Assembly: GCA_032622095.1 (NCBI GenBank)
Contig: CP136068.1
Location: 158,481,465-158,545,464 of the forward strand
Length of the DNA stretch: 64,000 bases
Reading direction: 5' to 3'
From: Siphonodentalium dalli
Lineage: Eukaryota; Mollusca; Scaphopoda; Gadilida; Siphonodentaliidae
Shown here: piece after piece, positions 21,225-49,658 of the stretch
How positions within the stretch are numbered: position 1 is the stretch's first letter
How the letters are laid out: every line of letters starts with the position of its first letter
Made by a program: the position numbers and the translations under genes
The notes under the pieces: generated by a model
Databases searched by the model: none
What the model was told of the DNA's origin: nothing
What the model saw: only the letters and a program-made list of their open reading frames with translations

Positions 21225-21900
21225 GCGGATCAATGTTCTGGTATATGATATTCGTCTCTGGTTCTGACCATTCCATTGGGCGCGGTTTTACACTCAGTTC
21301 AGATGTGTGCTCTTCCATATTTTTCAGGTTCCTGGTTGTGGACCTTCTATTGGGCGCAAATATAAATTCAGTTCCGTTTTGGGCTCCTTACATCATGTCC
21401 ATGCCCGTTGTTCGTGTCCGTATATTGGGCGCGGTTTTACATTCAGCTCACTCTTGCCTCTTCCAAAAACGCCATGTCGTTGCTTCTGGGATTCAGTAGT
21501 GGTTCTCCCCTTGCTTATCCGTAGAAATGTGACACTTTGTTTCGAATGAAATTCGCATTATTATTTTGTATCAAAAAAGCCTATAGTCTGCGTGTACTAT
21601 AATGCGAACATTTTGTGGTTTCAGATTTTAGCTATTTTTCAATGAATTGCTGCCCTTAATTATGTCTCCATCCATCTCTGCAGAGACTGTGGAGTTTCAC
21701 CCATGGTTCTTCTATTTGGGCACGGTTGTACATTCAGCTACATTTCATTGGGGTTTTTGTACAGGACTTACGTGTGCCTCGCCCTTATATTGGGTTCTAC
21801 ATTCAGCCCCTTCAAGTCCTTTTGTTTGGTTAATGTCTGTGTGCCTCGCCCTTATAATGGGTTCTACATTCAGCCCCTTCAAGTCCTTTTGTTTGGTTAA
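21225..21900 (+). repeat. degenerate copies of the signal-peptide exon start
   Basis: The words TTGGGCGCGGTTTTACA, TCAGTTC and TCAGCTCA recur near 21277, 21345, 21420, 21710, 21785 and 21850. They are diverged versions of the sequence encoding the hydrophobic signal segment of the gene starting at 22117. One at 21396-21455 still reads as a start codon followed by a hydrophobic stretch. They are older, longer-period relatives of the 75-bp array that follows. The hydrophobic frames over them are by-products. Confidence 0.65.
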
Positions 21901-21910
21901 TGTCTGTTCC

Positions 21911-22178
21911 TCGCCCTTATATTGGGCGCGGTTTTGTATTCAGCTATATTTTTTATTTCTTACAGGATGTTTTTGCCTGTGGTTATCGCCCTTATATTGG
22001 GCGCGGTTTTGCATTCAGCTATATTTTTTATTTCTTACAGGATGTTTTTGCCTGTGGTTATCGCCCTTATATTGGGCGCGGTTTTGCATTCAGCTATATT
22101 TTTTATTTCTTACAGGATGTTTTTGCCTGTGGTTATCGCCCTTATATTGGGCGCGGTTTACGCTCAAGACGAGACGAC
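21911..22178 (+). repeat. 75-bp tandem repeat of splice acceptor plus signal-peptide start
   Basis: Copies begin at 21911, 21986, 22061 and 22136 with TCGCCCTTATATTGGGCGCG. Each full unit also contains TTTTTTATTTCTTACAG and GATGTTTTTGCCTGTGG, that is, a polypyrimidine tract, an AG acceptor, an ATG and the first codons of the secreted gene. The period is a multiple of three, so a frame stays open through all copies (25 residues per unit). Only the last unit is continued by mature-protein codons. Confidence 0.9.
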
Positions 22179-28200: not shown

Positions 28201-31200
28201 CAAGCTGATACACTGGGAATTTGTGTCTAAACTCACAGTTGTTTGCTCTAACATTCTGGCCAAAGTCGAAGTATTTTCCTATGTTGTATTCCAAGAACAT
28301 CCAACTGGCAACTTTGCTCATAATGTTATAGAAAACTGCTGAGTATTTCCGAACAAATAATATATCATATGTTCGTAATAATCAACATGCTATATTTTGT
28401 GTCAGTTCCTCATATAGTATGATTTTGAGCGTTTGCACTCGCCTACGACATTTTTAATGCGTGATACTCCAACCTTGAAACCATGTGATTCCCCACCGTG
28501 CTATTCTTCTTTCTAGGTGGAGAACATTCCATTTCCCGAAGTACCACAGAGCGTCCTCGACATGCCGACACTGGACGAACAGATAGCGGAAATGCGCGAA
28601 TATTTCCGAGCGTATAAACTCCAGGACCCGACAATCCGGGACTACAAACCTTACTTCCGACCTGTTCTCTGTTACCTAGAGGGCGCTTGGCAATCGAAAA
28701 CAGACAGCATAGACGAACCATTCGACAGCGATCGGCACCACATCGACGCCAGTAGCTGGTTTGATTTGCAAGAGAAACTCATGTACACATCGAAAACAGG
28801 TTAATATAGAAAATAGAAAATCACTTGTACCCAGCCGGTGACAGAGTCTGTAATGAATTGAGTATGACTGGTGCGCTCCGGTAGAGATTGGCAGACGCCT
28901 TATCCGCCAGCTCCTCTCGTGCATTAATGAGTGTGTGCGAAACGCTCCATTATCGGCACAACCAATTAAAGTGATGTGAAACACCCCAGTATGGTGATCA
29001 AATAGAAATGGAGAATAATTTTGTTCAATGTAGTAATTTTTACAAATAGTATATCCAAATTGACAACACACACCGTCATTTTTATATATGAATTAAATGC
29101 AGTGACTCTCGATGGCTAAATCGTTTTCGATAGTTTATCGCCGATAGACGCGTCCCGAATCCAGTAGTAAATATTTACAATTGAGCCTAGTTCTGATGAT
29201 GTTTTCTATGGAATGGTAAGATGGATTTGCTTTAATTTTTTGGTAATGTTAGAAGAATGTTACATTCCTCCAGTTGTCATAGCGCCTGAATACTATCTTA
29301 ACAGTTTCACGCACCAGAACAAGTACATAATATGTCTTTAATTGTATACACCGGCTCTATCCGAATTACAACTAAGTTCAAGTAGGTTGGAACCATGAAT
29401 ATATCTTGTATAACCATGAATCTCTAAGCTGGAAACATTCCAAAGTGATGACGGGCGACATGTTTTTGAACCATTTGACTTCCTACTAGTAACACTCGTT
29501 GCGAGTTATCCTCTCTACGTTATTGTTTATGATATTTCGTTATTCCGAAGGTTCTTTGTTCCGAGGGTTTTTATACCGAAGATTCATGTTGACATAATAA
29601 AGAACATTCGGAATAAGAACCTTCGGAACAAAGATCCTTTGGAATAACCCTTTACCCAACAGAAGGGCCCTGTGCCAATGCATTCTCTTATATATGCGAG
29701 TCGACCATAGGTCGCCTCGTATATATAAGAGAATGCATTGGCTTAACACATTAAAAATTATAAAATTGTTAAAGAATGTAAGAATTTTTTTTTTAGGCCA
29801 ATGCATTCTCTTATATATGCGAGGCGACCTATGGTCGACTCGCATATATAAGAGAATGCATTGGCACAGGGCATAACTGTAACTATCACAATGTGGTCAA
29901 GGAGCCGGTTCCAATGATATCCATATTTGTATGGTTCTATTGAGACAGACCGAAGATATTTTAGGCTGTTGAAGCTTTATTTGGCCGGTTTTGGCCGTTT
30001 TGTTGGGTAAAGGGATAAACAAACTTCGAAATATAGATATGACCCCACACCTTGAATGTCAGAGTCCCACGTTTTTATGTTGATATGGATTCATTCAGTG
30101 ACCGCTTTGAACGCATCGGGAATTATCGGTTGGTGTTATCGTACATAAATGCATGACATTCCCAATGTGCATGTATTATCTCGTTGTCTCTCTGTCTGTC
30201 TGGTTATATTTCCTGAATATCCCTCCAGAATAACCGAATGGAAGAAATGGTTAATAAGTTCAAATCCGCCCATTCGCTACAATCATTCTGAAAGTCCGCG
30301 TCATGTACGTTTTCTGATTCGAATGGGATGGTCCCCTTCATTAGGAAATGCATTTGGGATTTAACCCTTTACCCAACAAAGCGGCCAAAAACGCCCAAAT
30401 AAAGCTTCAACAGCCTAAAATATCTTCGGTCTGTCTCAATAACACCATACAAATATGGATATCATTGGAATCGGTTCATTGACCACATTGTGATGGTTAC
30501 AGTTATGGCTTATGCCATGTGCCAATGCATTATCTTGTATATGCGAGTCGACCATAGGTCGCCTCGGATATATAAGAGAATGCATTGGCCTAAAAAAAAT
30601 CTTTTTTAACACTTTTTACCATTTTTTCTAACATTCTTTAACAATTTTATAATTTGTTCTTACATTTTTTTGACAATTTTATCATTTTTAATATGTGTTA
30701 AGCCAATGCATTCTCTTATATATGCGAGGCGACCTATGGTCGACTCGCATATATAAGAGAATGCATTGGCACCGGGCCGTTCTGTTGGGTAAAGGGTTAA
30801 TGCATGGCGTCATCGTTATATTAACTAAATGGCGGTCTTTTATTCAGGGCTCAAAGATACCAACGAGAACTACGCCTACCTCCCAACAACACTGGCAGAC
30901 GTTCTCGATGGAGGTCCAACTTACGCCCAATGGAACTACCGAATACTGTGTCACCAAATCCAGAAAGATATTAACCTCGATCGAATCCGCCCAGTTGACG
31001 ACGTATCAGCGAGAATGGCAAGGGACATAACTCTGGAGGAATATACCAACTCCAGGGCTGCGAGGTTTAACTTCAACGGGAAGGATAACTCTTTTCTGGT
31101 AAGTTAATAAAAAGTCTTGTTTCGCCGATATACGGAACTGTGTATTAGTACGCGGGTATGGGTCTCTGTTGGTGGTATCCAACTTGGGATTTCCAAATGA

Positions 31201-34200
31201 ATCCCCAAGTCATAATTTTCAAGTCCTCGAAATTCCGTTTGCACTGCCCCTCCCCCGTATTAGTCATCAATTCGTTCGTCGATTTGGTTCAAGTTTCGTG
31301 GTTCTGCATGTCCACAGGCCCCTGGGGAAAATTACTAAAATACCAATATAGACTATACCGCATAGTCTATATTGGTATTTTAGTAATTTTCCCCAGGGGC
31401 CTGTGCTTCTGTCAGTTTAGGAAACAAATGCAATGAAAGATTGGAATTTGGTGCATGGCAACTTTTTGTCAAGAGATCAGGTTTTGCAAGAAGGAATTAT
31501 CACGAAATACGGAGCACAACAAACATAAAATACCTCTTCTTCTTCAGAAAGACGATAAGTACCAATTTGGAATTATCGATGACATCATGGAAGAAATCCC
31601 AGGAAAAGATAACTATCCGGGGGTTTTAAGGGAGAACTCGTTCGGACAGACGGCATACAGATTCCGAGACGGCAACGAAGAGCTCAACGCGGGTCGCTAC
31701 CACAGAATGTACAGGTCCAAGGTCGCAGGCGCGCTCGGTCTGACTGTCCGGAACAGAGGATTCTCAGATGACAACTTGTTTGTCTCCGTGACGTCACACC
31801 AGAACATCGTCGAAGCATCAATCAACGACTGTAACACAGTGAATAAGGTTAGCCGTAATGCCCCTTTAAGTACATTGTACATTGATTTCTATAATTGCAA
31901 ATGTTTGGGTCTTTTCATTACATTCAGAATTTATACAGTCTAATAAATAGATATTGAATGAGCATTGCGTGTGTTGGTATTCTTAATCCGACATGCAACA
32001 CTCAAATTCGTTATATTAGTTTAAAACACGATACTTAACGAGACTTAATTAATTAGACGGGTTTTATCTGTTCTACATTTCAAGTGTTGTGTTGTCAGTC
32101 GCCGTGTCAATTGTCCGTGGCGATTGTTAAACCTTAAGTAGAGGGCACATGTAACTCCCTACTCGCTCGCAGAATCGTGAATATCAGTTAACAGAGAGGG
32201 GTGAATTATCCAAAACTTCAACATATCAAGAGGTAATATTTAGACTAAATTACATCAAAATTTGTCATTTGGGCTGGAACATAATCAAAATTGGTGTGAT
32301 AGCGCGTACCAGCCTTTTTGTTGAATCCCGAATACCGGTTAAATTGGGCATATTAAACCCGAGTACTAGATAACAGCGCCTGAAATGCTTGAATCCCGAG
32401 GGGGTGTCACCCTCTAAGTATATATAATGTTTGTTTTTCCCACGTTCTGTATATAGGATATATAGGTCAATAAACCCGGGATGTTCTTCCATATATAGGT
32501 ACTTTATATGCCCCGAAATAATACCACTAATCGATCCATTTTCATGCATATAGCGCATTATATATAGTTAAAGATGCACAATCCGAACTAACGCTCCTAC
32601 ACTCTTATAACTAATGTGTAGAAACGATTACACATCAAATGTGTAAACCCGGTTAATACACATAGCAATGTGTAGTTTTACATACAAATACATGGACCAA
32701 GGGCCGTTCTACACATAATGTGTATATTTTGTTACACACAATTGTGTAAGAACTTAGAGCATGCGCATTGCGGTGCCTTCAGTTCCATAGTCTGCAATAC
32801 ATGCCGGCCATATTGTTTGAGTATATTTTTTGGAATACAATCTACAGCGATCGTAGACAAGGACTGTAAGTTCAGAATTCCGACTTGTGGGTATATAGTA
32901 TTAATGATATATGAGGATTTATTTGTTAAAACTATCATGGCGAATACTGCCCTTAGACTCGTTTATATGATTGTTTGTAATACGGTAATACTAATATTAT
33001 GCAACCACGCCATGACCCTGGTTTGTTCATTTAAAACGAAAACTCACACATCACAGAGCAAAATATTACGTACCATTGTACGCCATGAAAGTTTTAACAT
33101 ATAAATCTCCATATGTCATCAGTACTATATACCCACAGTTCGGAATACTGAACTTATATTCTTGTCTACGATCTGTATGTGTAAGAATCTACACAAAATG
33201 AGTAAGGGATATATGTTTATTTTATGCACACCGGTGTATATTAATGTGTAGAAATTGACCCATTTATTGTGTACCAGGTAAGGTCTCCGTTGGGGTATGC
33301 ACCTTGAAATTTACAACTGCATCCCCCTTAATTTTTTCGCAAAAAAATATCATTTGCACCCACCCCCCATTTGGGTTGGAACGTTCTAACTGGTACCTCA
33401 AACTACTTTCCAACTATTGGCAAGTTAAAGTGATGTGAAACACTCCGGTTGGGTGATCAAATAGAAATGGAGAATAATCTTGCTCAAATATGCATAGTTC
33501 AGAGGATGATATCTACGGAGTGGTATGGTCGATTTGTTTGAGATTTTACGAAATGTTAGTAGAATGCTACATTGCCACAGTTGGCATAGTGCCTGAGTAC
33601 TAACTTATCAGTTTCACGCACCCGAACAACTCCATAATATGTCTTTAACGAAATTATCACATTCAAACTATATATATATATAATTCAGGAAGAGACGTGC
33701 ACGCGTTACTCCCGTGCTATCCTACTGGAGTCTAACACTCTATAACCCATCTCTATAATTCATGTCATGAACATTGGTGGGCGTTATATACAATATATGA
33801 TACAGATCTCGAACAGTGTAGTATCATATAGTAAACTTGGGGAACTGTACCATATCATAGTATAATTAATCTGTATGAGAAACATGGGATACTGTGACTA
33901 ATCATTATATACATTTACACACAGCCGTGCATTTTACACGACCAGTATTATAGGTAATCTTATGACAAATATGTTTGAAGACGCTTTGCTTTTAACTAAA
34001 TCTAAAACATTCATTTCTAAAATGCCTTTGGTTAACCTGCCGCTGACATTGTCTCCGTCATTATAGTGTGCTAAGTGTGCTGTTCCCTTACCCTGTTAGT
34101 CGTGTTACCTGGTCAAACCACCACTTACCTATATATTGGTTACATATCAAAACAAACCCATTGAGAGCCCCTCATATAATGGAGCAGACGACAATCAATG

Positions 34201-37200
34201 GTGCATGCTTCCATATGTGTGGGACTGCCTGTGGGTTCACAATCATGCAGTGCATTACTCTGGTATGTCGTTCTAGTATGCTAGGTGTGGCGATCGCTTA
34301 CCATGACAGTCGCGTTACCTGGTCATACCAGCGATGTATATATATCTCATTTACGTCCATGGTCATACACACAACTATAATGGTTACATATATAAAATAA
34401 CACTATATTTCAGGTAGAGACATGTACGCCTTACTCCAGTCGAGTTTCCTATGCTATTCCACTGGAGCTTGTGATATTGACGCCCCTGTTGTCATGGAAC
34501 CCATACGATATAGCATTTAAAGGGTGGCCAGGCGGCATCGACGGAAAAACTGTAGAGGTCGGAGGTCGTAACGGAGGGCTCACGCCAGATAAAGCATGGG
34601 ACGGCAACCACAATCAGATATTTTACCGGACTCCTAAGGAGCTGTTTGATGGGTCGGAGATCGGGAAAGATCCCGCTGATACAGCCAAGCCACTAGTCGG
34701 AGTCCTCGATCAAACAGGTGAGTCTCTTGGTACGATCCCGGCGATACAGCCAAGGAGCAAGTCGGAGTCCTCGGTCAAACGGGTGAGTCTCCTGGTACGA
34801 TCCCGGCGATACAGTCAAGCAGCAAGTCGGACCTCGACCAAACAGGTGAGTCTCCTGGCACGATCCCGGCGATACAGTCAAGCAGCAAGTCGGAGTCCTC
34901 TATCAAACAGGTGAGTCTCCCGCAAACACAGCCAAGCAACTAGTCGGCGTCCTCGATCAAACAGGTGAGTCTCCTGGCACGATCCCGGCGATACAGTCAA
35001 ACAGCAAGTCGGAGTCCTCGATCAAACAGGTGAGTTTCTTGGTACGATCTCGGCGATACAGCCAAGCCACTAGTCGGATTCCCCGATCAAACAGGTGAGT
35101 TTCCCACAGGTACAGTCAAGCCTCTAGTGGGAGTCCTCGATCAAACAGGTGAGTCTCTTGGCGCGACCCCGGCGATACAACCAAGCCACTAGTCGGAGTC
35201 CCCGATCAAACAGGTGAGTCCCTTGGTACGATCCCGGCGATACAGCCAAGCCGCTAGTGGGATTCCTCGATCAAACATGTGAGTCTCTTGGCACGATCCC
35301 GGCGATACAGCCAAGCCGCTAGTGTGAGTCCTCGTTCAAACAGGTGAGTTTCTTGGTACGATCCCGGCGATACAGTCAAGCCACTAGTGGGAGTCCTCGT
35401 TCAAACAGGTGAGTCTTATGGCACGATGCTGGCGATACAGTCAAGCCACTAGTGGGAGTCCTCGTTCAAACAGGTGAGTCTCATGGCACGATGCTGGCGA
35501 TACAGTCAAGCCACTAGTGGGAGTCCTCGTTCAAACAGGTGAGTCTCATGGCACGATGCTGGCGATACAGTCAAGCTACTAGTGGGAGTCCTCGTTCAAA
35601 CAGGTGAGTCTCCTGGCACGATGCCGGCAATATAGCCAATTAAGCCGCTAGTCGGAATCCTCGATCGAACAGGTGAGTCTCTTGGTACGATCCCGGCGAT
35701 ACAGTCAAGTCGCTAGTCGGATTCCTCGTTCAAACAGGTGAGTCTCCTGGCACGATGCCGGCAATATAGCCAATTAAGCCGCTAGTCGGAATCCTCGATC
35801 GAACAGGTGAGTCTCTTGGTACGATCCCGGCGATACAGTCAAGCCGCTAGTCGGATTCCTCGTTCAAACAGGTGAGTCTCACGGCACGATCCCGGCGATA
35901 CAGTCAAGCCGCTAGTGGGAGTCATCTATCAAACAGGTGAGTCTCTTGCATACACAGCCAAGCCGCTAGTGGGAATCCTCGATCAAACAGGTGTGTCTCC
36001 TAGTACGATCCCGGGGATACAGCCAAGCCACTAGTCGGATTCCTCGATCAAACAGATGAGTCTCTTGATACGATACCGGCGATACAGCCAAGCCACTAGT
36101 GGGAGTCCTCGATCAAACAGGTGAGTCTCTTTGTACGATCCCGGCAATACAGCCAAGCTACTCTCGCACACACAGCCAAGCCGCTAGTCGGAGTCCTCGA
36201 CCAAACAGGTGAGTCTCGCGGCACGATGCGAATGTGGTGAGAGAAGTGGTGGCATCCGGAACGAGAATTATCATTCCTGAAATGGAAGGCATCGGACTGG
36301 TCCGCACCAGATATCACATAATGCCCATCCATGCAGAAAGCAGCGCCGCTTGATGGGAACTTGACGTAGTCAAATAAAACCCTGTGCCAATGCATCTCTT
36401 ATATATGCGAGTCGACCATAGGTCGCCTCGCTATAAGAGAATGCATTGGCCCCACAAATTTTAAACTATTTTTTATAATTGTTAAAAGATGTAGGAAAAA
36501 ATAAAAATAAAAAAATGTTAAAGAATGTAAGAAACAATTAATATTTTTTTTTTAAATTGTTAAATAATGTAAGAAAAAATGATGGAAATTGATAAAGAAT
36601 GTAAGAAAAAATGATTAAAAATATTATACAATTGTAACAGAATGTAAGAAAAAATTATGAAAATAATACAATTGTTAAAGAATGTAAGAAAAAATTATAA
36701 AAAATTATTTGCACAGGTGTGGTGAGAGAAGTGGTGGCATCCGGAACGAGAATTATCATTCCTGACATGGAAGGCGTCGGACTGGTCCGCACCAGATATC
36801 CCATAATGCCCAAACATGCAGAAGGCAGCGCCGCTTGGCGGGAACTTGACGCAGTCAAAGAAAACCCTGTGCGAATGCATTCTCTTATATATGCGAGTCG
36901 ACCATAGGTCGCCTCGCATATATAAGAGAATGCATTGGCCCCACAAATGTTATACTATTTTTTATAATTGTAAAAAAATGTAGGAAAAAATGATAAAAAA
37001 AATATAAAAAATTGTTAAAGAATGTAAGAACAAATTATGGAAATTGATAAAGAATGTAAGAAAAATGATAAAAAATTATACATTTGTAACAGAATGTAAC
37101 AAAAATTATGAAAATGATACAATTGTTAAAGAATGTAAGAAACAATTATAAAAAAATTTATTTGCACAGGTGTGGTGAGAGAAGTGGTGGCATCCGGAAC

Positions 37201-38110
37201 GAGAATTATCATTCCTGACATGGAAGGCGTCGGACTGGTCCGCACCAGATATCCCATAATGCCCAAACATGCAGAAGGCAGCGCCGATTGGCGGGAACTT
37301 GACGCAGTCAAAGAAAACCCTGTGCCAATGCATTCTCTTATATATGCGAGTCGACCATAGGTCGCCTCGCATATATAAGAGAATGCATTGGCCCCACAAA
37401 TGTTATACTATTTTTTATAATTGTAAAAAAATGTAGGAAAAAATGATAAAAAAAATATAAAAAATTGTTAAAGAATGTAAGAACAAATTATGGAAATTGA
37501 TAAATAATGTAAGAAAAATGATAAAAAATGATACAATTGTAACAGAATGTAAGAAAAATTATGAAAATGATACAATTGTTAAAGAATGTAAGAAACAATT
37601 ATAAAAAAAATTATTTGCACAGGTGTGGTGAGAGAAGTGGTGGCATCCGGAACGAGAATTATCATTCCTGACATGGAAGGCGTCGGACTGGTCCGCACCA
37701 GATATCCCATAATGCCCATACATGCAGAAGGCAGCGCCGCCTGGCGGGAACTTGACGCAGTCAAAGAAATGCTTCTCAATCTCAACACTAACAAATACCT
37801 TCTGCACGAGCAGCCGAATTTCGTGTTGGGCGAGGATCCTACAGCAGGGTTGGTGCACATGCGAATACAGGACACGGTACAGATGGAGCCCGGTAATCAC
37901 CATCACGATGTTTACGTGTCCGCAGACGACCTCGGGACGGTAACTGATGGTGTGACGCGTATCACGGCATGGACTACGTCATCATTACAGCACCAACATG
38001 AAGTAGAAATCGGATATGACTTGAACGTGTCCAAATACAAGATATATACATGCGACGGTGTCAGCGTATGCTGGGATAAACATCCTAAAGTTCTGCTGTT
38101 TGTTGAGTAA
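22117..38110 (+). CDS. secreted protein of unknown function, seven coding exons, 669 aa
   Basis: Coding exons 22117-22265, 25361-25595, 28517-28799, 30848-31098, 31548-31847, 34414-34717 and 37623-38110 join in phase with AG acceptors and GT donors throughout, giving 669 residues. A short hydrophobic N-terminus (FLPVVIALILGAVYA, about residues 2-16) is a signal peptide. A leucine-rich heptad segment (about 20-48, IEQLENTVNTLARQV) suggests a coiled coil. The rest looks globular, rich in charged and aromatic residues with scattered cysteines, including two near the C-terminus (YTCDGVSVCW), and no transmembrane anchor. I recognise the type as a conserved uncharacterised invertebrate extracellular family but know no function. 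Introns are crowded with MITEs, and several junctions are tandemly repeated. A non-coding 5' exon must exist because the ATG lies 1 nt after an acceptor. No poly(A) site is certain. Confidence 0.85.
22487..22942. mobile_element. MITE family 2, copy d (intron 1)
   Basis: It starts TTAAAGGCACTCAATCCGAT and ends GATTGTGCATCTTTAA, with all family blocks inside. The open frames over it (about 80-94 codons) are shared with other copies only as decayed fragments, so they are not called. Confidence 0.75.
23756..23830. repeat. short hairpin
   Basis: Arms TTTATTTTCAATGGAAAGGG plus AATAACTC and GAGTTATTCCCCTTACATTG plus AAAATAA flank a loop of about 18 bp. Confidence 0.75.
24531..24681. repeat. 151-bp near-perfect palindrome
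   Basis: Left arm ATAAGGATTAACTGTCATGT ... and right arm ... ACATGACAGTTAATCCTTAT pair over about 70 bp. The centre is AAAACCCGAAGGGTTTT. It is fold-back-element-like, in intron 1. Confidence 0.9.
25361..25595 (+). CDS. secreted gene, coding exon 2
   Basis: Acceptor GTCTATATTCAG, donor CACGAG|GTATAA. Encodes residues 50-128 (split Arg codon with exon 1, phase 0 at the end). It begins SDGRSGLKQIRHN and includes VGLGEFIAVLNGVEFRTRHN. Codon use is clearly coding and GC-richer than the introns. The in-phase junctions on both sides are the main support. Confidence 0.88.
25690..25800. repeat. 50-bp direct repeat, two copies
   Basis: CCGGTTTATTAGTTTAAAAG through GATCAGGAGG occurs twice back to back. 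Confidence 0.8.
26390..26477. mobile_element. 88-bp mini inverted-repeat element, copy 2
   Basis: Ends GTTACAATTCATTCCG and CAGAATTAATTGTAAC; the interior is as in 11964-12051. Confidence 0.78.
26515..26720. other. GC-rich unassigned patch in intron 2
   Basis: A block of about 200 bp that is clearly GC-richer than its surroundings, open on the plus strand for 65 codons. It ends LSEPSHMLP followed by a stop and GATGAAGCACAC. It could be the 3' tail of a decayed retroelement ORF. No domain is recognisable. Confidence 0.3.
26748..27274. mobile_element. MITE family 3, copy b (intron 2)
   Basis: Ends TTAAAGATGGATTATCTCTT and AAAGAGATAATCCACCTTTA plus A. Co-linear with 16822-17385, with a single left terminus instead of three. 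Confidence 0.88.
27275..28030. other. rest of intron 2, nothing recognised
   Basis: A short duplicated word, GGAAACAAAGGACCGGGTCA / GGAAACAAAGGGCCGGGTCA, lies at about 27493-27540. Otherwise plain AT-rich DNA. Confidence 0.4.
28031..28500. mobile_element. MITE with CACGGTGGGGAATCACGTGG ends, 16 bp from the exon 3 acceptor
   Basis: Terminal inverted repeats of about 45 bp (CACGGTGGGGAATCACGTGG ... and ... CCATGTGATTCCCCACCGTG) bound 470 bp. The right end lies 16 bp before the exon 3 acceptor AG at 28515-28516, so the polypyrimidine tract TTCTTCTTTCTAG is directly next to the element. The 92-codon minus-strand frame across the end is a shadow. Confidence 0.85.
28517..28799 (+). CDS. secreted gene, coding exon 3
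   Basis: Acceptor TTCTTTCTAG, donor AAAACAG|GTTAAT, end phase 1. Encodes residues 129-222 and one base of codon 223, opening VENIPFPEVPQSVLDMPTL. It includes an acidic helix-like stretch (DEQIAEMREYFRAYK) and LCYLEGAW, and ends DLQEKLMYTSKT. No known domain signature that I can name. Confidence 0.88.
28970..29335. repeat. dispersed repeat, copy 1 (intron 3)
   Basis: TAAAGTGATGTGAAACACYC, GGTGATCAAATAGAAATGGA and GTTTCACGCAC recur in the same order at 33427-33645 (copy 2). Both are flanked by TTAAAG-like ends. The copies differ in internal length. Confidence 0.65.
29535..29648. repeat. imperfect hairpin rich in CCGAAGGTTC
   Basis: TTCCGAAGGTTCTTTGTTCC is answered by GGAACAAAGATCCTTTGGAA, with an inner inverted pair. 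Confidence 0.6.
29644..30018. mobile_element. TTAACCCTTT-type two-hairpin MITE (copy 3, intron 3)
   Basis: Ends CCCTTTACCCAACAG and GTTGGGTAAAGGG are bounded on both sides by ATAA instead of TTAA. The two hairpins are at about 29676-29744 and 29798-29866 in opposite orientation. The right half carries the family block GGTTCCAATGATATCCATAT and GACAGACCGAAGATATTTTA. Confidence 0.85.
30361..30800. mobile_element. TTAACCCTTT-type two-hairpin MITE (copy 4, intron 3)
   Basis: Perfect TTAA on both sides (30361-30364 and 30797-30800), ends TTAACCCTTTACCCAACA and TGTTGGGTAAAGGGTTAA. Orientation is opposite to copy 3. Hairpins lie at about 30521-30589 and 30703-30771. The right end is 47 bp upstream of the exon 4 acceptor. 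Confidence 0.9.
30848..31098 (+). CDS. secreted gene, coding exon 4
   Basis: Acceptor CTTTTATTCAG, donor TTTCTG|GTAAGTTAA, phases 1 and 0. Encodes residues 223-306: GLKDTNENYAYLPTTLADV, then AQWNYRILCHQIQKDINLD, RPVDDVSARMARDITLEEY and RAARFNFNGKDNSFL. Strong coding composition and a consensus donor. Confidence 0.88.
31313..31405. repeat. 93-bp near-perfect hairpin (intron 4)
   Basis: CACAGGCCCCTGGGGAAAAT ... and ... ATTTTCCCCAGGGGCCTGTG form arms of about 44 bp around a very short loop (TATACCGCATA). Confidence 0.9.
31548..31847 (+). CDS. secreted gene, coding exon 5
   Basis: Acceptor CTCTTCTTCTTCAG, donor AATAAG|GTTAGC, phase 0 at both ends. Encodes exactly 100 residues (307-406), opening KDDKYQFGIIDDIMEEIPGK and ending SINDCNTVNK. 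A symmetric exon, so its skipping would keep the frame. Confidence 0.88.
31848..32598. other. intron 5, first part, nothing recognised
   Basis: AT-rich sequence without repeats I can name, except a 30-bp end of MITE family 2 (TTAAAGATGCACAATCCGAA) at 32569-32598 that is cut by the next element. Confidence 0.45.
32599..33273. mobile_element. MITE family 4, copy b (intron 5), inserted in a family 2 end
   Basis: It starts TACACTCTTATAACTAATGT immediately after a family 2 terminus and is co-linear with 18817-19437. The right terminus is lost near TTTATTGTGTACCAGG. Confidence 0.75.
33427..33645. repeat. dispersed repeat, copy 2 (intron 5)
   Basis: Matches 28970-29335: TAAAGTGATGTGAAACACTC, GGTGATCAAATAGAAATGGA and GTTTCACGCACCCGAACAA. 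Confidence 0.65.
33689..33732 (+). pseudogene. decayed duplicate of the exon 6 acceptor and 5' end
   Basis: ATTCAG followed by GAAGAGACGTGCACGCGTTA and CTCCC...GCTATCCTACTGGAG mirrors the exon 6 start (GTAGAGACATGTACGCCTTA ... GCTATTCCACTGGAG) about 725 bp downstream. A deletion of about 11 bp breaks the frame. It is a fossil of an earlier junction duplication. Confidence 0.65.
34070..34330. repeat. diverged direct repeat before exon 6
   Basis: GTGTGCTAAGTGTGCTGTTC ... AGTCGTGTTACCTGGTCA and GTATGCTAGGTGTGGCGATC ... AGTCGCGTTACCTGGTCA are about 205 bp apart. A third, weaker relative (GGGATAGGTGTGATTTTCGT, CACTTACCTGTATATA) is at about 40938-41010. Confidence 0.55.
34414..34717 (+). CDS. secreted gene, coding exon 6
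   Basis: Acceptor CTATATTTCAG, donor CAAACAG|GTGAGT, phases 0 and 1. Encodes residues 407-507 and one base of 508: VETCTPYSSRVSYAIPLELV, LTPLLSWNPYDIAFKGWPGG, KAWDGNHNQIFYRTP, and ends KPLVGVLDQT. The first donor is taken as authentic because its phase matches exon 7. The last 40 bases of this exon and the donor are then repeated about 23 more times downstream. Confidence 0.85.
34718..36215 (+). repeat. about 65-bp minisatellite of exon 6 3' end plus 5' splice site, about 23 units
   Basis: Each unit reads approximately GTGAGTCTCTTGGTACGATC, CCGGCGATACAGCCAAGCCA, CTAGTCGGAGTCCTCGATCA, AACAG. The second and third parts are the last codons of exon 6 (ADTAKPLVGVLDQT region), and each AACAG|GTGAGT recreates the donor. 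About 21 units keep GTGAGT; variants include ATGTGAGT (about 35277), GGTGTGTC (about 35990) and GATGAGTC (about 36054). Blocks of units share private variants (GATGCTGGCGATACAG at 35425-35560), so the array grew in steps. Confidence 0.92.
36232..36384 (+). pseudogene. partial exon 7 duplicate 1 (broken)
   Basis: Matches the first ~150 bases of exon 7 but follows the donor array directly and has lost the acceptor. An in-frame TGA replaces the Trp/Ala region (GCTTGATGGGAA), and there are several substitutions. It ends, like the others, at GTCAAA followed by the CCCTGTGCC hairpin junction. Confidence 0.85.
36385..36450. repeat. 69-bp-type hairpin after exon 7 duplicate 1
   Basis: Arms as in the TTAACCCTTT MITEs with small deletions (GCATCTCTTATATA, CTCGCTATAAGAG). 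Joined to the exon fragment by AAAACCCTGTGCC. Confidence 0.85.
36451..36715. repeat. AT-rich minisatellite between exon 7 duplicates
   Basis: Repeats of AAAGAATGTAAGAAAAAAT-like units; parallel stretches are at 36940-37169 and 37393-37622. The last bases before each duplicate are TTATTTGCACAG or TTTATTTGCACAG, an intact acceptor. Confidence 0.8.
36717..36866 (+). pseudogene. partial exon 7 duplicate 2 (intact acceptor, truncated)
   Basis: Starts after TTTGCACAG in the same phase as exon 7 and is open through GVVREVVASGTRIIIPDME to WRELDAVKEN. It then runs into the hairpin, where the frame stops within about 15 codons (ending YASRP). If spliced from exon 6 it would be a terminating (poison) exon or an alternative short C-terminus. 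Confidence 0.8.
36871..36939. repeat. 69-bp hairpin after exon 7 duplicate 2
   Basis: Near-perfect arms; first base pair changed (GCGAATGCATTC). Confidence 0.88.
37170..37319 (+). pseudogene. partial exon 7 duplicate 3 (intact acceptor, truncated)
   Basis: 453 bp downstream of duplicate 2 and almost identical (one Ala to Asp change, GSADWREL). Same acceptor, same phase, same stop inside the following hairpin. Confidence 0.82.
37324..37392. repeat. 69-bp hairpin after exon 7 duplicate 3
   Basis: Standard arms and loop; reads in the same direction as the two upstream. Confidence 0.88.
37623..38110 (+). CDS. secreted gene, terminal coding exon 7
   Basis: Acceptor TTATTTGCACAG ends at 37622, phase 1, stop TAA at 38108-38110. 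Encodes residues 508-669: GVVREVVASGTRIIIPDMEG, RYPIMPIHAEGSAAWRELDA, a His-rich segment (PGNHHHDVYVSADD), VEIGYDLNVSKYKIYTCDGV and the end KVLLFVE. It is the only one of four copies that continues past LDAVKE, so it is the functional exon. The His cluster and Cys pair might bind metal or form a disulfide; that is inference. Confidence 0.88.
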
Positions 38111-44835: not shown

Positions 44836-46130
44836 ATGGCTGACGGAATACAGACGAGGGGTAAAAAACAAGATTACCAGAAAATGTTGAAAGGAAATTA
44901 CACTCAATCTGAATCTGAGATCGAAATAACACGGGATCCAGAAAGACTAAAATCTACAGTAGTAATTCCCAAGATGGAAACACAATTACCATGGGAAGAC
45001 AACCCAGAGGAGATAGTTCGAATGAAGAACGAAAAAACATTGAACAGAAAAGAGTTACCAAAACCAGTAAGGTACGGAAGACACGATAACACTAGATATC
45101 AGGACACCTGCAGTTCCGATGATGACGATGATGAAGCAGAGTTGTTACGAAAATACGAGGAGACAAGATACAGACGAGAAAAAATGGAAAAACGGGATAT
45201 GAAGAAAAGACTGAAAGAAAAGATAAGAGAAGAAGAAGATGAGATTGAAAGATTACAAAGAAAGAGAACAACGGAAGGTAAAAAAAATTAACTTGCCGCC
45301 AAAAAAGTTAATAGACATTGGGTTGAAAGAGTTAAGGAATGATCATGAGTCCAGAGTAAAAGCTGAAAAACAGCTCAAAAAATTAAAAATTATTGACAAA
45401 AGTTCATCGTGCCCTGAATCCTCATCATCTGAATCAAGCGAGAATGATTCAGACTCACATAGATATAAGAAAAGGTCTTCTTGTAAGAAAAAAGTTTCAG
45501 GCTTGGAGACAAATCCATCTATGAAAGTTAAATTTCCCCAAGCATGTCCACAGGCTTATTTACAAATGGAATATGTAAACCGCAAGGTGGATTTCAAAAG
45601 TTTGAGTTTGAATCAATTTTTTGCTGGGGAGATGGAAATTATTGTAGCTTGTGATGATGATGAGGAACAGAAAGGCAGGATGAACTTGTTAATGAAGATA
45701 GCATATTATCATGACAAATATGATTGGTCCTCATTACTAGATTTCTATGCGGCTTGGATTCGTCGCATAGAATATGGGCAGAGCTCATGGGATGATGATC
45801 CAACAAAAATAGAACCCCAATTTTGGCCGGGAATTTCAAGAGGAAATCAAATATTCTTCCGAAAAAGTCAGGCAATTTCCAAAGGGAAAATTTGTAAATA
45901 AACGATTTGGATCATTTGGTAATGTTAGTAACAGCACCAATGAATCAAAAGGTGAAGTTTGGTATTGTCCTGATTATCAGAGAGGACTCTGTTCAATCCC
46001 AAATGCTCATTACAAGTTTATCAGGGGTGAAATGAGGAATATGGCACACATTTGTTCAACTTGCTACCAGAGGGACAGGTCACAAAAAAATCACCCAGAA
46101 AATTCTGTTGAGTGCCCTCATAAGAAATGA
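44836..46130 (+). pseudogene. Ngaro gag-like ORF1 with two frameshifts
   Basis: Frame 1 (44836-45291) opens MADGIQTRGKKQDYQ and has an acidic DDDDDEAE patch and a Lys/Glu-rich helix. The reading then shifts to the frame at 45239-45901, with Ser-rich SSSESSEND and a globular part (FAGEMEIIVACDD, WSSLLDFYAAWIRRIEY). It shifts again near 45880 to a third frame ending at 46130 with a Cys/His cluster, WYCPDYQRGLCSIPNAHYKF, then HICSTCYQRD and a last Cys-His. That zinc-knuckle-like end is typical of DIRS/Ngaro ORF1. The host-side role would be nucleic-acid binding. Confidence 0.75.
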
Positions 46131-46146
46131 CAATTAGAAACTACAA

Positions 46147-47951
46147 TGTTCCAAACTGTAAAACAGAAAACAGCATTAGTTTCTGACAACAACATTGAAT
46201 GTGAAAATCCATCTGGTAGCAATATTGACAACAATGATGGGCCAAATAATCACATTGATAAATTGGATATTAATGAAAGGGGGGGGGGCAGAAACACATA
46301 ATGCAGTGACTCAAACGATAATTGAAGTGCACAATGAAGTTTTACAGTCCGGACGTTGTAATGCGCTTGGATGTAAGATTCCAATTTACTCAAGGTTAAA
46401 TATAGAATACATTCAAGAATTCTTATATGGTTACAATGACAGGGAAATCCTTAAATTCTTGAATTATGGATTCCCTATTAATTTTGAAGGGAACGTAGAG
46501 GAAATTAAATTTAAACACACAATGAACCACAAAGGGGCGAGGGAACACACGTTAGAAATTGAAAACTATCTAAAAAATGAGATAGAAAACAAGGCAGTGA
46601 TAGGCCCCTTTGCTGACAATCCATTCAAATCAAAGGTGGTCTTATCCCCTCTCAACACGGTTTCAAAGAGAGACTCTGTTGAACGGAGGATAATTTTGGA
46701 TCTAAGTTTTCCTCCGAATAACTCGGTGAACTCATTTATTCCCAAAGATACATATATGGGGGAAAACATCACAATTAAGTATCCAACAGTTGATGATCTA
46801 GTAGATTTAATCAAATCTCAAGGAAATGGAACTGTATTAATGTGGAGAAGGGACTTACGAAGAGCGTACAGACAAATACCTTGTTGTCCAGGGGATATCC
46901 ATCTCCTGGGATATAAATTCCAAGAAAAATTATACTTTGATCATGTGTTGACAATGGGTTTGCGATCAAGTGCATATATTTTTCAAAGAGTTTCGAATGC
47001 ATTTGCATTCATAGCTCTTAAGCATGGAATCACAATTATAAACTATCTGGATGATATGGCATCGGCACAGATAGCTAATGAGGCAGAAAGCTCATTCAAT
47101 TGCTGGGTAACATAATGGAGAAATGTGGATTGGAGGAATCAAAATCAAAAGCTTGTGCACCGTCCACAAAAATGGTATTCCTTGGGGTACAATTCGATAC
47201 TGTTCAGAAATCATTAACAATAACAAAAGAGAGACTCCATGAAATATTATTGTTAGTAGATGAATGGTTAATCAAGCCGAAGGTTTCATTGCACGAATTA
47301 CAAAGTCTGTTGGGAAAGCTGAATTTTGTATCAAATTGTGTAAAACCAGGAAGGTTATTTGTTTCCCGATTGTTAAATTGGTTACGAACTTTGGATTCAT
47401 CTAAACCCAACAAGAAAATCAATATCCCAACTGAAATAAAATCAGATTTAAAGTGGTGGTCATTGTTTCTGCCAAACTTCAATGGAGTATCAATGATGTT
47501 TTATGATGAATGGAGTCAACCAGATGCCATATTAGCGACAGATTCGTGTCTAGTGGGCATTGGTGGGATTTATGGATGTCAATGTTTTCATGCACAGTTT
47601 CCGATTCATATTCTTGACCAGAAATTACATATCAATGCTCTCGAATTGCTTGCAATTGTTGTATCAGTGGGCTTATGGGGCAAATCCTTCACTGGCAAAA
47701 GAATATTAGTTTATTGTGATAATCAATCAACAGTTTCTGTGTTGAATTCAGGTGCTACAAAGGATATTTTTCATCAAAAATGCTTAAGAGAAATTTGCTA
47801 TGTAGCAGCAATTTATGAATTCCAGATTAGGGCTCAATATTATCCAGGTGAACAGAATAGATTGGCAGACTCATTGTCAAGGTGGTACTTAGATGCACAG
47901 TATAAGACAAGATCCATAAATGATACACATGGCTTGTATAAGGAAATTTAA
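46147..47951 (+). pseudogene. Ngaro reverse transcriptase / RNase H, two frameshifts
   Basis: The likely start is 46147. A G10 run at 46279-46288 shifts the frame, after which 46290-47115 is open. RT landmarks: RRIILDLSFPPNNSVN, MWRRDLRRAYRQIP (first catalytic Asp), LTMGLRSSAYIFQRV and the NYLDDM box. A second shift near 47105 leads into 47100-47951, with the thumb/connection (MVFLGVQFDT) and RNase H motifs ATDSCLVGIGG (Asp), INALELLAI (Glu), VYCDNQSTV (Asp) and RLADSLSRW (Asp). Motifs are intact apart from the frameshifts, suggesting recent inactivation. Confidence 0.9.
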
Positions 47952-48029
47952 ATTCCACAAAGGTTATTCAATTTTTCTAATACATGGTAAATTTCAGACG
48001 AACAACTAAGAAAATTGGCCAAAGAAACA

Positions 48030-48976
48030 AAGGTTTCATGATGTTCAGCCTTCGCGAAAGGAACTTACAGTAATTTAGAGACTCAGTTCAAAACATTCTT
48101 ACAATTTTGTTTTTATTTCAAATTTGATCCATTTCCGGTTGAAGAAAATGTGCTTAATTATTATGCACAGTTTCTTAGCAGGTCTTTCAAGTCTGTCACA
48201 TCGGTAAAAAAAACTATATTTCTGGAGTAAAAACACTGCATGCCATGTTAAATTTAGATTGCGAGGCTGTATAATCTTATTCATTGAAATTAGTACTGAA
48301 GGGTATTGCCAGACGGCAACCTTATTTGCCAAAGAGAGCAAGTCCAATCACAATTGAAATTTTGAGAAAAGTAGCACAAATTATCGATTTCAATAATCCA
48401 CTGCACACAACAATGTGGGGCATAATGTTGTTTGGGTTTTTTCTGATGGCTAGAAAATCAAATGTATTGGTAGATTCAATCAGTAAATTTGATTTGAATA
48501 AAGTGCTGAAACGAGAAGATATAACAGTTGAAAACAACTTTTTGCAAGTCAAATTTGGATGGTCAAAAACTATCCAATTTGGAGAGAACGAATTATTAAT
48601 ACCTTTAGTAGCCATTCCTGGACATATCCTTTGTCCAGTTTCAGCATATAACAGAATGGTGAATATTGTAAAAACGGTCGGTAAAAGCCCAGCATTTGTT
48701 AGAAAGACTGGAAAAGGTCTTGTACCAATTACCTACAACTACTTTACTCAGTTTTTACGTGACAGACTTGATAAGATCGGAGAAGAGTCCGAATTACATG
48801 TATTCTCATCACATTCACTGAGAAGGGGTGGGGCATTATATGCCTTTCAGTCTGGAGTTTCGGCTGAACTCATTCAGTTACATGGAAACTGGATTAGTGA
48901 TGCCTATAAAATCTATTTGGAATTCACTCTAAAGGACAGATTATCAGTTACCCAAAAAATGGTTGAGAACATGTAG
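48030..48976 (+). pseudogene. Ngaro tyrosine recombinase, N-terminus broken
   Basis: 48284-48976 is open and contains the catalytic set: Arg in FFLMARKSNV, HSLRRGG (His-x2-Arg), HGNW and the Tyr in KIYLEF, spaced as in DIRS-group recombinases. The N-terminal SAM-like part (about 48040-48270, YSNLETQFKTFLQFCFYF ...) is readable only in two other frames with stops near 48228 and 48271, so the protein is truncated. It would integrate circular element DNA. Confidence 0.88.
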
Positions 48977-49106
48977 AATGTTAATATAGATCTCTTACTA
49001 GTATCCTTGATATGTCACTGAATGTGTTAAAAATAAACTCTTTGACTGAACCACAAAAATTCAAAGTTATGATGAATTTTAAATGTAGCCTTCTTTTACA
49101 GGTCAG

Positions 49107-49658
49107 ATGGGCATCAGGTCGGTTTTGATACTGGAGGACTCCATAGTTAAATACATAGAAGGTATCGATTACACAGAAGTATGCAGTATAAGGGGAGTCA
49201 CAATAGGAAAGCTAAATTGGCATCTGAATTCAAAAAAGGATTATCTGGCAAAATTTGATCTTATACTAATTCATGTGGGCACTAACAATGTTGCAGAACA
49301 TATGTCTGTAAAGGATTTTGAAGGAGCATATAGCAATATGTTGGCAGCGCTTTTCAAAATCAAGAAATTCAGAGTTGTTATATCTTCCATTTTGCCAAGA
49401 CCAAAAGACTTTGAAGAGTCAAATAGGCTGGTTATAGATTGTAATGCCAATTTGAGAAATATAGCATTAGAGGATGAAAGAGTGGTAGAATATGTTAGTT
49501 CATATAAACCATTTATGAAAGATGGAATGCCTAAACATAGGTTTTTTGCTAGAAGCGATGGTGGATTACATTTAAACTTTGAAGGTACAAGGCAATTGAA
49601 GAACTTTTTTATACAAGTGCTCAAACAATATAAATTGAGAGATAATAATACGTTATGA
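49107..49658 (+). CDS. Ngaro SGNH/GDSL-type hydrolase ORF3
   Basis: 183 codons. Block I reads SVLILEDSIVKYIEG, where the usual Gly-Asp-Ser has Glu in place of Gly next to the presumed nucleophile Ser. Block III reads LILIHVGTNNVAEH (Gly and Asn conserved), and block V GGLHLNFEG supplies the Asp-x-x-His-like pair. SGNH ORFs are a recognised feature of many Ngaro elements; the role in transposition is unknown. The frame is unbroken, unlike the other ORFs of this copy. The start at 49107 is tentative. Confidence 0.8.
   Translation: MGIRSVLILEDSIVKYIEGIDYTEVCSIRGVTIGKLNWHLNSKKDYLAKFDLILIHVGTNNVAEHMSVKDFEGAYSNMLAALFKIKKFRVVISSILPRPKDFEESNRLVIDCNANLRNIALEDERVVEYVSSYKPFMKDGMPKHRFFARSDGGLHLNFEGTRQLKNFFIQVLKQYKLRDNNTL

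Follow-up and report, generated by a model that had tools for sequence, protein, structure and literature searches.

The window analysed here, 64,000 nucleotides of the genome of the scaphopod Siphonodentalium dalli, carries on its forward strand a conserved protein gene, termed gene C, with an intron that begins in a tandem array of splice donors and contains partial copies of the last exon towards its other end (Table 1). Exon 6-like sequence occurs at 14 places in the genome, including exon 6 itself, distributed over nine gene loci, namely gene C, its paralogs A and B on the minus strand of the same chromosome (with their exons 6 at ~162 kb and ~63 kb from gene C, respectively) and six loci on C5, C7 and C9 (L019-L024). 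Among the C5 paralogs, the exon 7 part of L021 is broken by a stop and gaps, and the neighbouring L022 is open over the match. Exons 2a and 2b, 6a and 6b, and 7a and 7b are split in A and B and unsplit in C. A Pfam search with exons 3-7 gave nothing above the cut-off, with two weak matches far below it, and no PDB chain related to exon 6 was found.

Purifying selection acts on the protein between gene C and its paralogs, with dN/dS values of 0.136 against A and 0.143 against B over exons 3-7 (534 codons), and a ratio of ~0.14 implies that gene C has produced a correct protein for most of the time since it diverged from A and B. The paralogs A and B are young duplicates of each other (dS 0.090), and the constraint on these two copies looks weaker, given a dN/dS of 0.53 between them. 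Elsewhere in the window, open frames at 44836-49658 resemble by eye a retroelement with a reverse transcriptase and a recombinase-like frame, and elsewhere in the genome, G000:C2:149.8-150.6 Mb holds dozens of protein-kinase matches with near-identical scores, arranged in tandem and mostly ~2-3 kb apart.

Table 1 Gene C exons, intron 6 and its repeats, and exon-edge arrays of the family. Plain positions are those of the window; positions with the prefix C8 are those of the chromosome.
Feature	Position	Strand	Basis
Acceptor-side repeat at the start-codon exon of gene C, 75-bp unit, 3.3 copies	21911..22159	+	TRF; acceptor by eye
Gene C exons 3 (28517-28799), 4 (30848-31098) and 5 (from 31548)	28517..31844	+	Open frames, splice sites
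Coding exon 6 of gene C, starts in phase 0, ends in phase 1	34414..34717	+	Open frame, splice sites
Unit 0, the presumed array source, at the coding end of exon 6	34669..34717	+	Homology with the corresponding exon end (GVLDQTG) in A and B
Intron 6, phase 1, GT at 34718, CACAG ending at 37622	34718..37622	+	Inferred from protein homology
Donor-side minisatellite, 24 donors, mostly 65-bp units	34718..36229	+	TRF, donor positions; end set by eye
First bases of donors 1-12	34718, 34783, 34846, 34911, 34965, 35030, 35095, 35149, 35214, 35279, 35344, 35409	+	
First bases of donors 13-24	35474, 35539, 35604, 35673, 35738, 35807, 35872, 35937, 35991 (GTGTGT), 36056 (ATGAGT), 36121, 36209	+	
Partial exon 7 copy 1, without acceptor, in-frame TGA	36234..36374	+	By eye on alignment
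Partial exon 7 copy 2, acceptor intact (CACAG ends 36716)	36717..36863	+	Alignment
Partial exon 7 copy 3, acceptor intact (CACAG ends 37169)	37170..37316	+	Alignment
Authentic exon 7, last exon, stop codon at its end	37623..38110	+	Open frame, homology
Exon 2a donor array of A, 7 copies of ~41 bp, 6/7 GTAAGT	C8:158374946-158375212	minus	
Exon 2b acceptor array of B, 13 copies of ~109 bp, 9 keeping AG|GT	C8:158459508-158460960	minus	
Exon 7b (last exon) end arrays of A and B, 41 bp, 15 copies each	C8:158339303-158339917 and C8:158444583-158445197	minus	

Twenty-four donors at the end of exon 6

A tandem array at 34669-36229 (+) holds 24 donors, with first bases from 34718 to 36209, and its TRF scores (557, 1325 and 1480) argue against a chance arrangement. 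A copy of the terminal 49 bases of exon 6 stands before each donor, and the 65-bp unit is made up of these 49 exon bases and 16 intron bases, the donor included. Successive donors lie 65 bp apart in 16 of the 23 spacings, the others being 54 bp (three), 69 bp (two), 63 bp and 88 bp. The motif GTGAGT is intact at 22/24 donors, the exceptions being those at 35991 and 36056, and the full CAG|GTGAGT is present at 20/24. ACAG-type AG sites number 22, one of which is exon 6's own and two of which lie inside unit 23; the distance from the AG to the next donor is 33 nt in 19/23 units (18 by script alone, with unit 5 read by hand). The sequence-only reading had described about 24 repeats of the exon 3′ end with its donor between 34678 and 36215, about 21 of them keeping GTGAGT and each holding an acceptor-like AG about 33 bases before the next donor; the array, its donors and the AG spacing all stand, whereas the GTGAGT count is slightly higher and the limits move to 34669 and, by eye, to ~36229, where the homology of the copies abuts a partial copy of exon 7.

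On approximate human donor weights, the consensus copy reaches 12.48 where the maximum is 12.61; none of the 3328 other plus-strand GT sites in the window outside 34600-36300 scores as high, and CAGGTRAGT is likewise absent from the plus strand outside that interval. A DNA search of the 2.23 Gb, nine-contig genome, which scored first-look candidates and could miss diverged copies elsewhere, returned 24 matches, all within the array. No directional growth of the array, with units added progressively away from the exon, is seen (Spearman 0.06, p 0.80, units 2-24).

Downstream of the array, the partial exon 7 copies, aligned from 36234, 36719 and 37172 and lying within 36234-37345, are linked to AT-rich DNA and a fold-back element inside a 453-bp tandem repeat. 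From each of copies 2 and 3, the frame runs for 63 codons from the junction to a stop, that of copy 2 entering the fold-back element before the stop, and both copies could act as short alternative last exons.

Age of the array and its counterparts in the family

The intron between exons 6 and 7 is present at three of the nine family loci, and only gene C among these carriers has the array; at the six other loci, the coding sequence is uninterrupted at this position, and the joined product of exons 6 and 7 aligns through the junction to the loci without the intron. In A and B, the same intron begins with one plain donor each (CCAAACAG|GTAGAAATTC), and a blastn comparison with each exon end plus 40 flanking bases detected no copies of the exon 6 end on the donor side in either gene, the same comparison giving in B one weak 41-bp match ~5 kb away. 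The intron of A contains an unrelated 32/33-bp repeat. Since A and B carry the same intron without the array, the array is younger than the intron and is a growth on a pre-existing splice site and exon boundary; an origin of the intron from the array is rejected on the same ground. An octamer common to the unit and to the start of exon 7 of B, considered by eye as a possible sign of intron origin, was judged to be chance because it straddles the joint between units.

Other exon edges of the three genes have also been multiplied. At the start of gene C, the 75-bp unit of an acceptor-side repeat holds TTTCTTACAG, the ATG and the signal peptide, and a related 67-bp unit lies just upstream, the two together spanning 21772-22159; the edges of exons 3, 4 and 5 of gene C showed no array in the edge-in-array test. 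The end of exon 2a, arrayed in A, is by eye a single copy in B, and the acceptor of exon 2b, arrayed in B, is by eye present in two copies in A. The start of exon 6a has three copies in B and one in A, plus a single additional decayed copy in each gene, and the array of B at this edge sits at an intron common to A, B and C. The exon 7b array units of A and B contain the stop codon and AAG|GTGAGA. A and B thus differ at three of four compared array edges despite a dS of 0.090. As read here, the authentic edge in each case is the copy joined to the exon body, and the arrays lie outside it. Two introns with arrays, 2a|2b and 6|7, are lacking in some family members, a hint of mirage-linked intron turnover (mirages are described below). 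Repeats that do not include an exon edge were also observed, namely a 67-bp array of nine copies in gene B (C8:158449752-158450372) ~29 bp behind the end of exon 7a, which it does not include, and 42-bp repeats in A (C8:158375328-158375622) and B (C8:158462852-158463622) that end ~15 bp before exon 2a begins and by eye resemble acceptor surroundings.

Arrays with a period of at least 15 and at least five copies number 29 in the 264 kb examined and cover 28,278 bases (10.7%). A rotation test of exon edges against these arrays within the three gene spans, with a 10-bp tolerance and some exon limits approximate, placed 5/54 edges in arrays versus 5.61 expected (p 0.67); the corresponding values were 7 versus 7.45 at three or more copies and 8 versus 8.98 at 2.5 or more, and if the two arrays lying ~15 bp from where exon 2a begins in A and B are included, the first figure becomes 7/54 versus 5.61. 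Exon edges as hot spots of array formation are therefore unsupported, as edges fall in arrays about as often as chance and no hot spot is needed, and the lack of depletion fits tolerance of such arrays. A donor score of at least 10 in the consensus unit was found for 4/29 arrays (exon 6 of C, exon 7b of A and of B, and exon 2a of A), each running in the sense of its own gene; as two of the four have a common origin and the donor weights used are approximate, this donor excess is a lead only.

Comparison with mirages and other splice-site repeats

Repeats of this type are known from amphioxus as mirages, reportedly first noticed in Adh. The sequence-only reading knew of no described system of this kind, a view that the amphioxus literature overturns: in PMC3087553 and PMC3902484, mirages are described from cephalochordates, in Adh3, the globins BflGb6 and BflGb9, troponin C and PGBD5, the last two from PMC3902484, and are reported not to disturb splicing, their length being unstable among haplotypes or somatically (PMC3087553, PMC3902484). 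As in those accounts, the gene C array is a minisatellite-like tandem duplication of an exon-intron boundary, which in mirages may be on the donor or the acceptor side; the unit sizes overlap (10-72 bp in Adh3, mostly 65 bp here); many units, not all, keep their splice signals, as do those of gene C; and the authentic boundary is found among the copies. Either exon boundary can be affected, and in this family the start of exon 7 is present four times in intron 6, including the authentic one, alongside the donor and acceptor arrays of the paralogs. By contrast, gene C has 24 copies, compared with 3 and 6 in two BflGb6 haplotypes and up to 7 in PGBD5, and the BflGb6 mirage is documented in two haplotypes, whereas the array here is known from the DNA of one assembly. 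In its structure, the gene C array is thus of the mirage type, to which it adds a case of 24 donors.

Two further systems share part of this arrangement. Arrays of dual-specific AG|GT sites occur in human UBC and VCX3A, with tandem units each carrying AG|GT, and 792 human introns are embedded in tandem repeats (PMC10809524). In UBC, the sites recur every 228 nt, a distance divisible by three, and the spliced introns are whole units, whereas the gene C units are mostly 65 nt with stops, and the homology-based intron ends outside the array. Because its predicted acceptor, ending at 37622, lies beyond the repeats, the gene C array falls outside the definition of a DSS-intron. Intron gain by tandem AG|GT duplication, proposed by Rogers in 1989 (cited in PMC3087553) and reported for potato RdRp (PMC4974935), likewise places a duplicated exon segment with AG|GT in tandem beside an intron, but the gene C intron predates the array, being present in A and B without it.

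Splice-site choice within the array

Exon 6 was joined in silico at each of the 24 donors to exon 7, and donor 1 alone yields the conserved protein. Use of donors 2-4 puts exon 7 out of frame, and with any of donors 5-24 the exon-6 frame meets an in-array stop at its codon 167, which then lies 53 to 1297 nt before the junction. The distance to donor 1 is divisible by three for 8/24 donors, donor 1 included, and 7 of these hold the codon-167 stop. The proposal that the array could be tolerated because any donor used first is in phase therefore fails, and phase tolerance of the array donors is ruled out. Delayed or diversified splicing, also proposed in the sequence-only reading, may still result from such a string of donors.

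We favour the reading that the array is a neutral mirage-type minisatellite in which the exon-attached donor is used, which we regard as probable, and the neutral amplification that the earlier reading had allowed as one possibility becomes the favoured one. A 65-bp segment over the 3′ edge of exon 6 would have been duplicated in tandem when the intron was already present, presumably by ordinary repeat expansion through unequal exchange or slippage. New copies would have been added on the intron side, leaving the exon body joined to copy 1. Under exon definition, the acceptor of exon 6 would pair with the nearest donor, so that donor 1 is chosen and the remaining 23 donors would leave with the intron. 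Such exon-proximal choice would let the array be tolerated and evolve nearly neutrally, and neutral repeat growth combined with it is the best supported mechanism. The exon-proximal rule fits both donor and acceptor arrays, whereas a "first transcribed wins" rule would fit donor arrays only.

The neutral reading is weakened by one observation, namely that the donor core is better preserved than the remainder of the unit, which drift would not need. We counted inferred changes per column and compared them by permutation, with columns treated as exchangeable and the unit tree taken as true. Over all 24 units, CAG|GTGAGT has 4 inferred changes versus 13.6 expected (p 0.011); with unit 1 left out, the expectation is 14.1 and p 0.005, and on non-CpG columns p is 0.0135. 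As a contiguous 9-mer it ranks 5 of 65 windows. For GTGAGT alone, with 2 changes, p is 0.045, or 0.073 on non-CpG columns, and the check for preferential GTGAGT retention suggested by the sequence-only reading is accordingly weakly positive, CAG|GTGAGT giving p 0.005-0.014. Among 65 windows, the 13-mer CAAACAG|GTGAGT shows the fewest changes (permutation p 0.0001, with the length chosen post hoc). No core retention was detected in four other arrays of the family (exon 7b of A, rank 29 of 41, p 0.72; exon 7b of B, 11 of 41, p 0.21; exon 2b acceptor of B, 71 of 109, p 0.59; exon 2a of A, 17 of 41, p 0.29). The excess retention in the gene C array is a hint and not a result, since rates differ between columns, the units have a common ancestry and this was one of five arrays tested.

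That the downstream donors are kept by selection, with some 20 near-perfect U1 sites at the start of the intron serving the gene, appears unlikely to us. If this were true, U1 snRNP loading may secure the distal donor, premature polyadenylation may be suppressed in the AT-rich intron, or the intron may be removed stepwise through its CAG|GTGAGT sites, and a mirage would have been put to use.

We give a similarly low probability to competition among the 24 donors, by which the array would lower or tune output, as use of any donor except donor 1 would lead to a frameshift or early stop and hence to nonsense-mediated decay. The 20 donors with CAG|GTGAGT are stronger than the donors of exons 3 and 4 of the gene (approximate weights), the stops left by donors 5-24 lie upstream of the junction, decoy exon 7 acceptors are present, and the mild donor-core retention points the same way. 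Against this, the same kind of array in amphioxus is reported to yield no aberrant mRNA (PMC3902484), and copy numbers at other arrays of the family change quickly. RNA structure that hides the inner donors is rejected as a means of favouring donor 1: five 300-nt pieces showed no unusual fold (z from -1.25 to 0.97), and donor 1 is not specially open, since its 9-mer has a probability of being unpaired of 0.0115, exceeded by 5/23 of the other donors (median 0.0025, highest 0.041).

We consider it very improbable that the array is removed by recursive or dual-specific splicing, with CAG|GTGAGT acting as acceptor and then as donor in steps of unit multiples that leave the exon end unchanged. The motif is present in 20/24 units, its least-changed 13-mer (chosen post hoc) reaches the acceptor side, and dual-specific AG|GT sites are used in the tandem repeats of UBC (PMC10809524); however, no U-rich tract is seen by eye on the 3′ side of the units, and stepwise removal is not needed, given that the authentic acceptor (37622) is located beyond the array.

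Least probable, to the point of being scarcely credible, are in-array micro-exons running for 33 nt from the AG of GATACAG to the next donor and adding 11-residue in-frame repeats in variable number: the spacing suits them in 19/23 units and 18/23 are open in frame (17 by script plus unit 5 by hand), but changes fall 13/14/14 over the codon positions, giving no sign of coding constraint, the intervening intron pieces measure 21-32 nt in most units, introns of that size being too short for most animals, the pyrimidine tracts are poor, although the authentic acceptors of the gene are also poor by that measure, and the aligned paralog proteins lack such a repeat.

Intron 6 of gene C is a natural test of splice-site choice, in which two dozen near-identical strong donors are followed by three like acceptors within one intron, and only the outermost donor and acceptor pair gives the protein. 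Several exon edges have become minisatellites within three paralogs, with copy numbers that changed since a duplication at a dS of 0.09, and the family is thus a good place to measure how far splicing tolerates mirages, and whether mirages occur outside lancelets.
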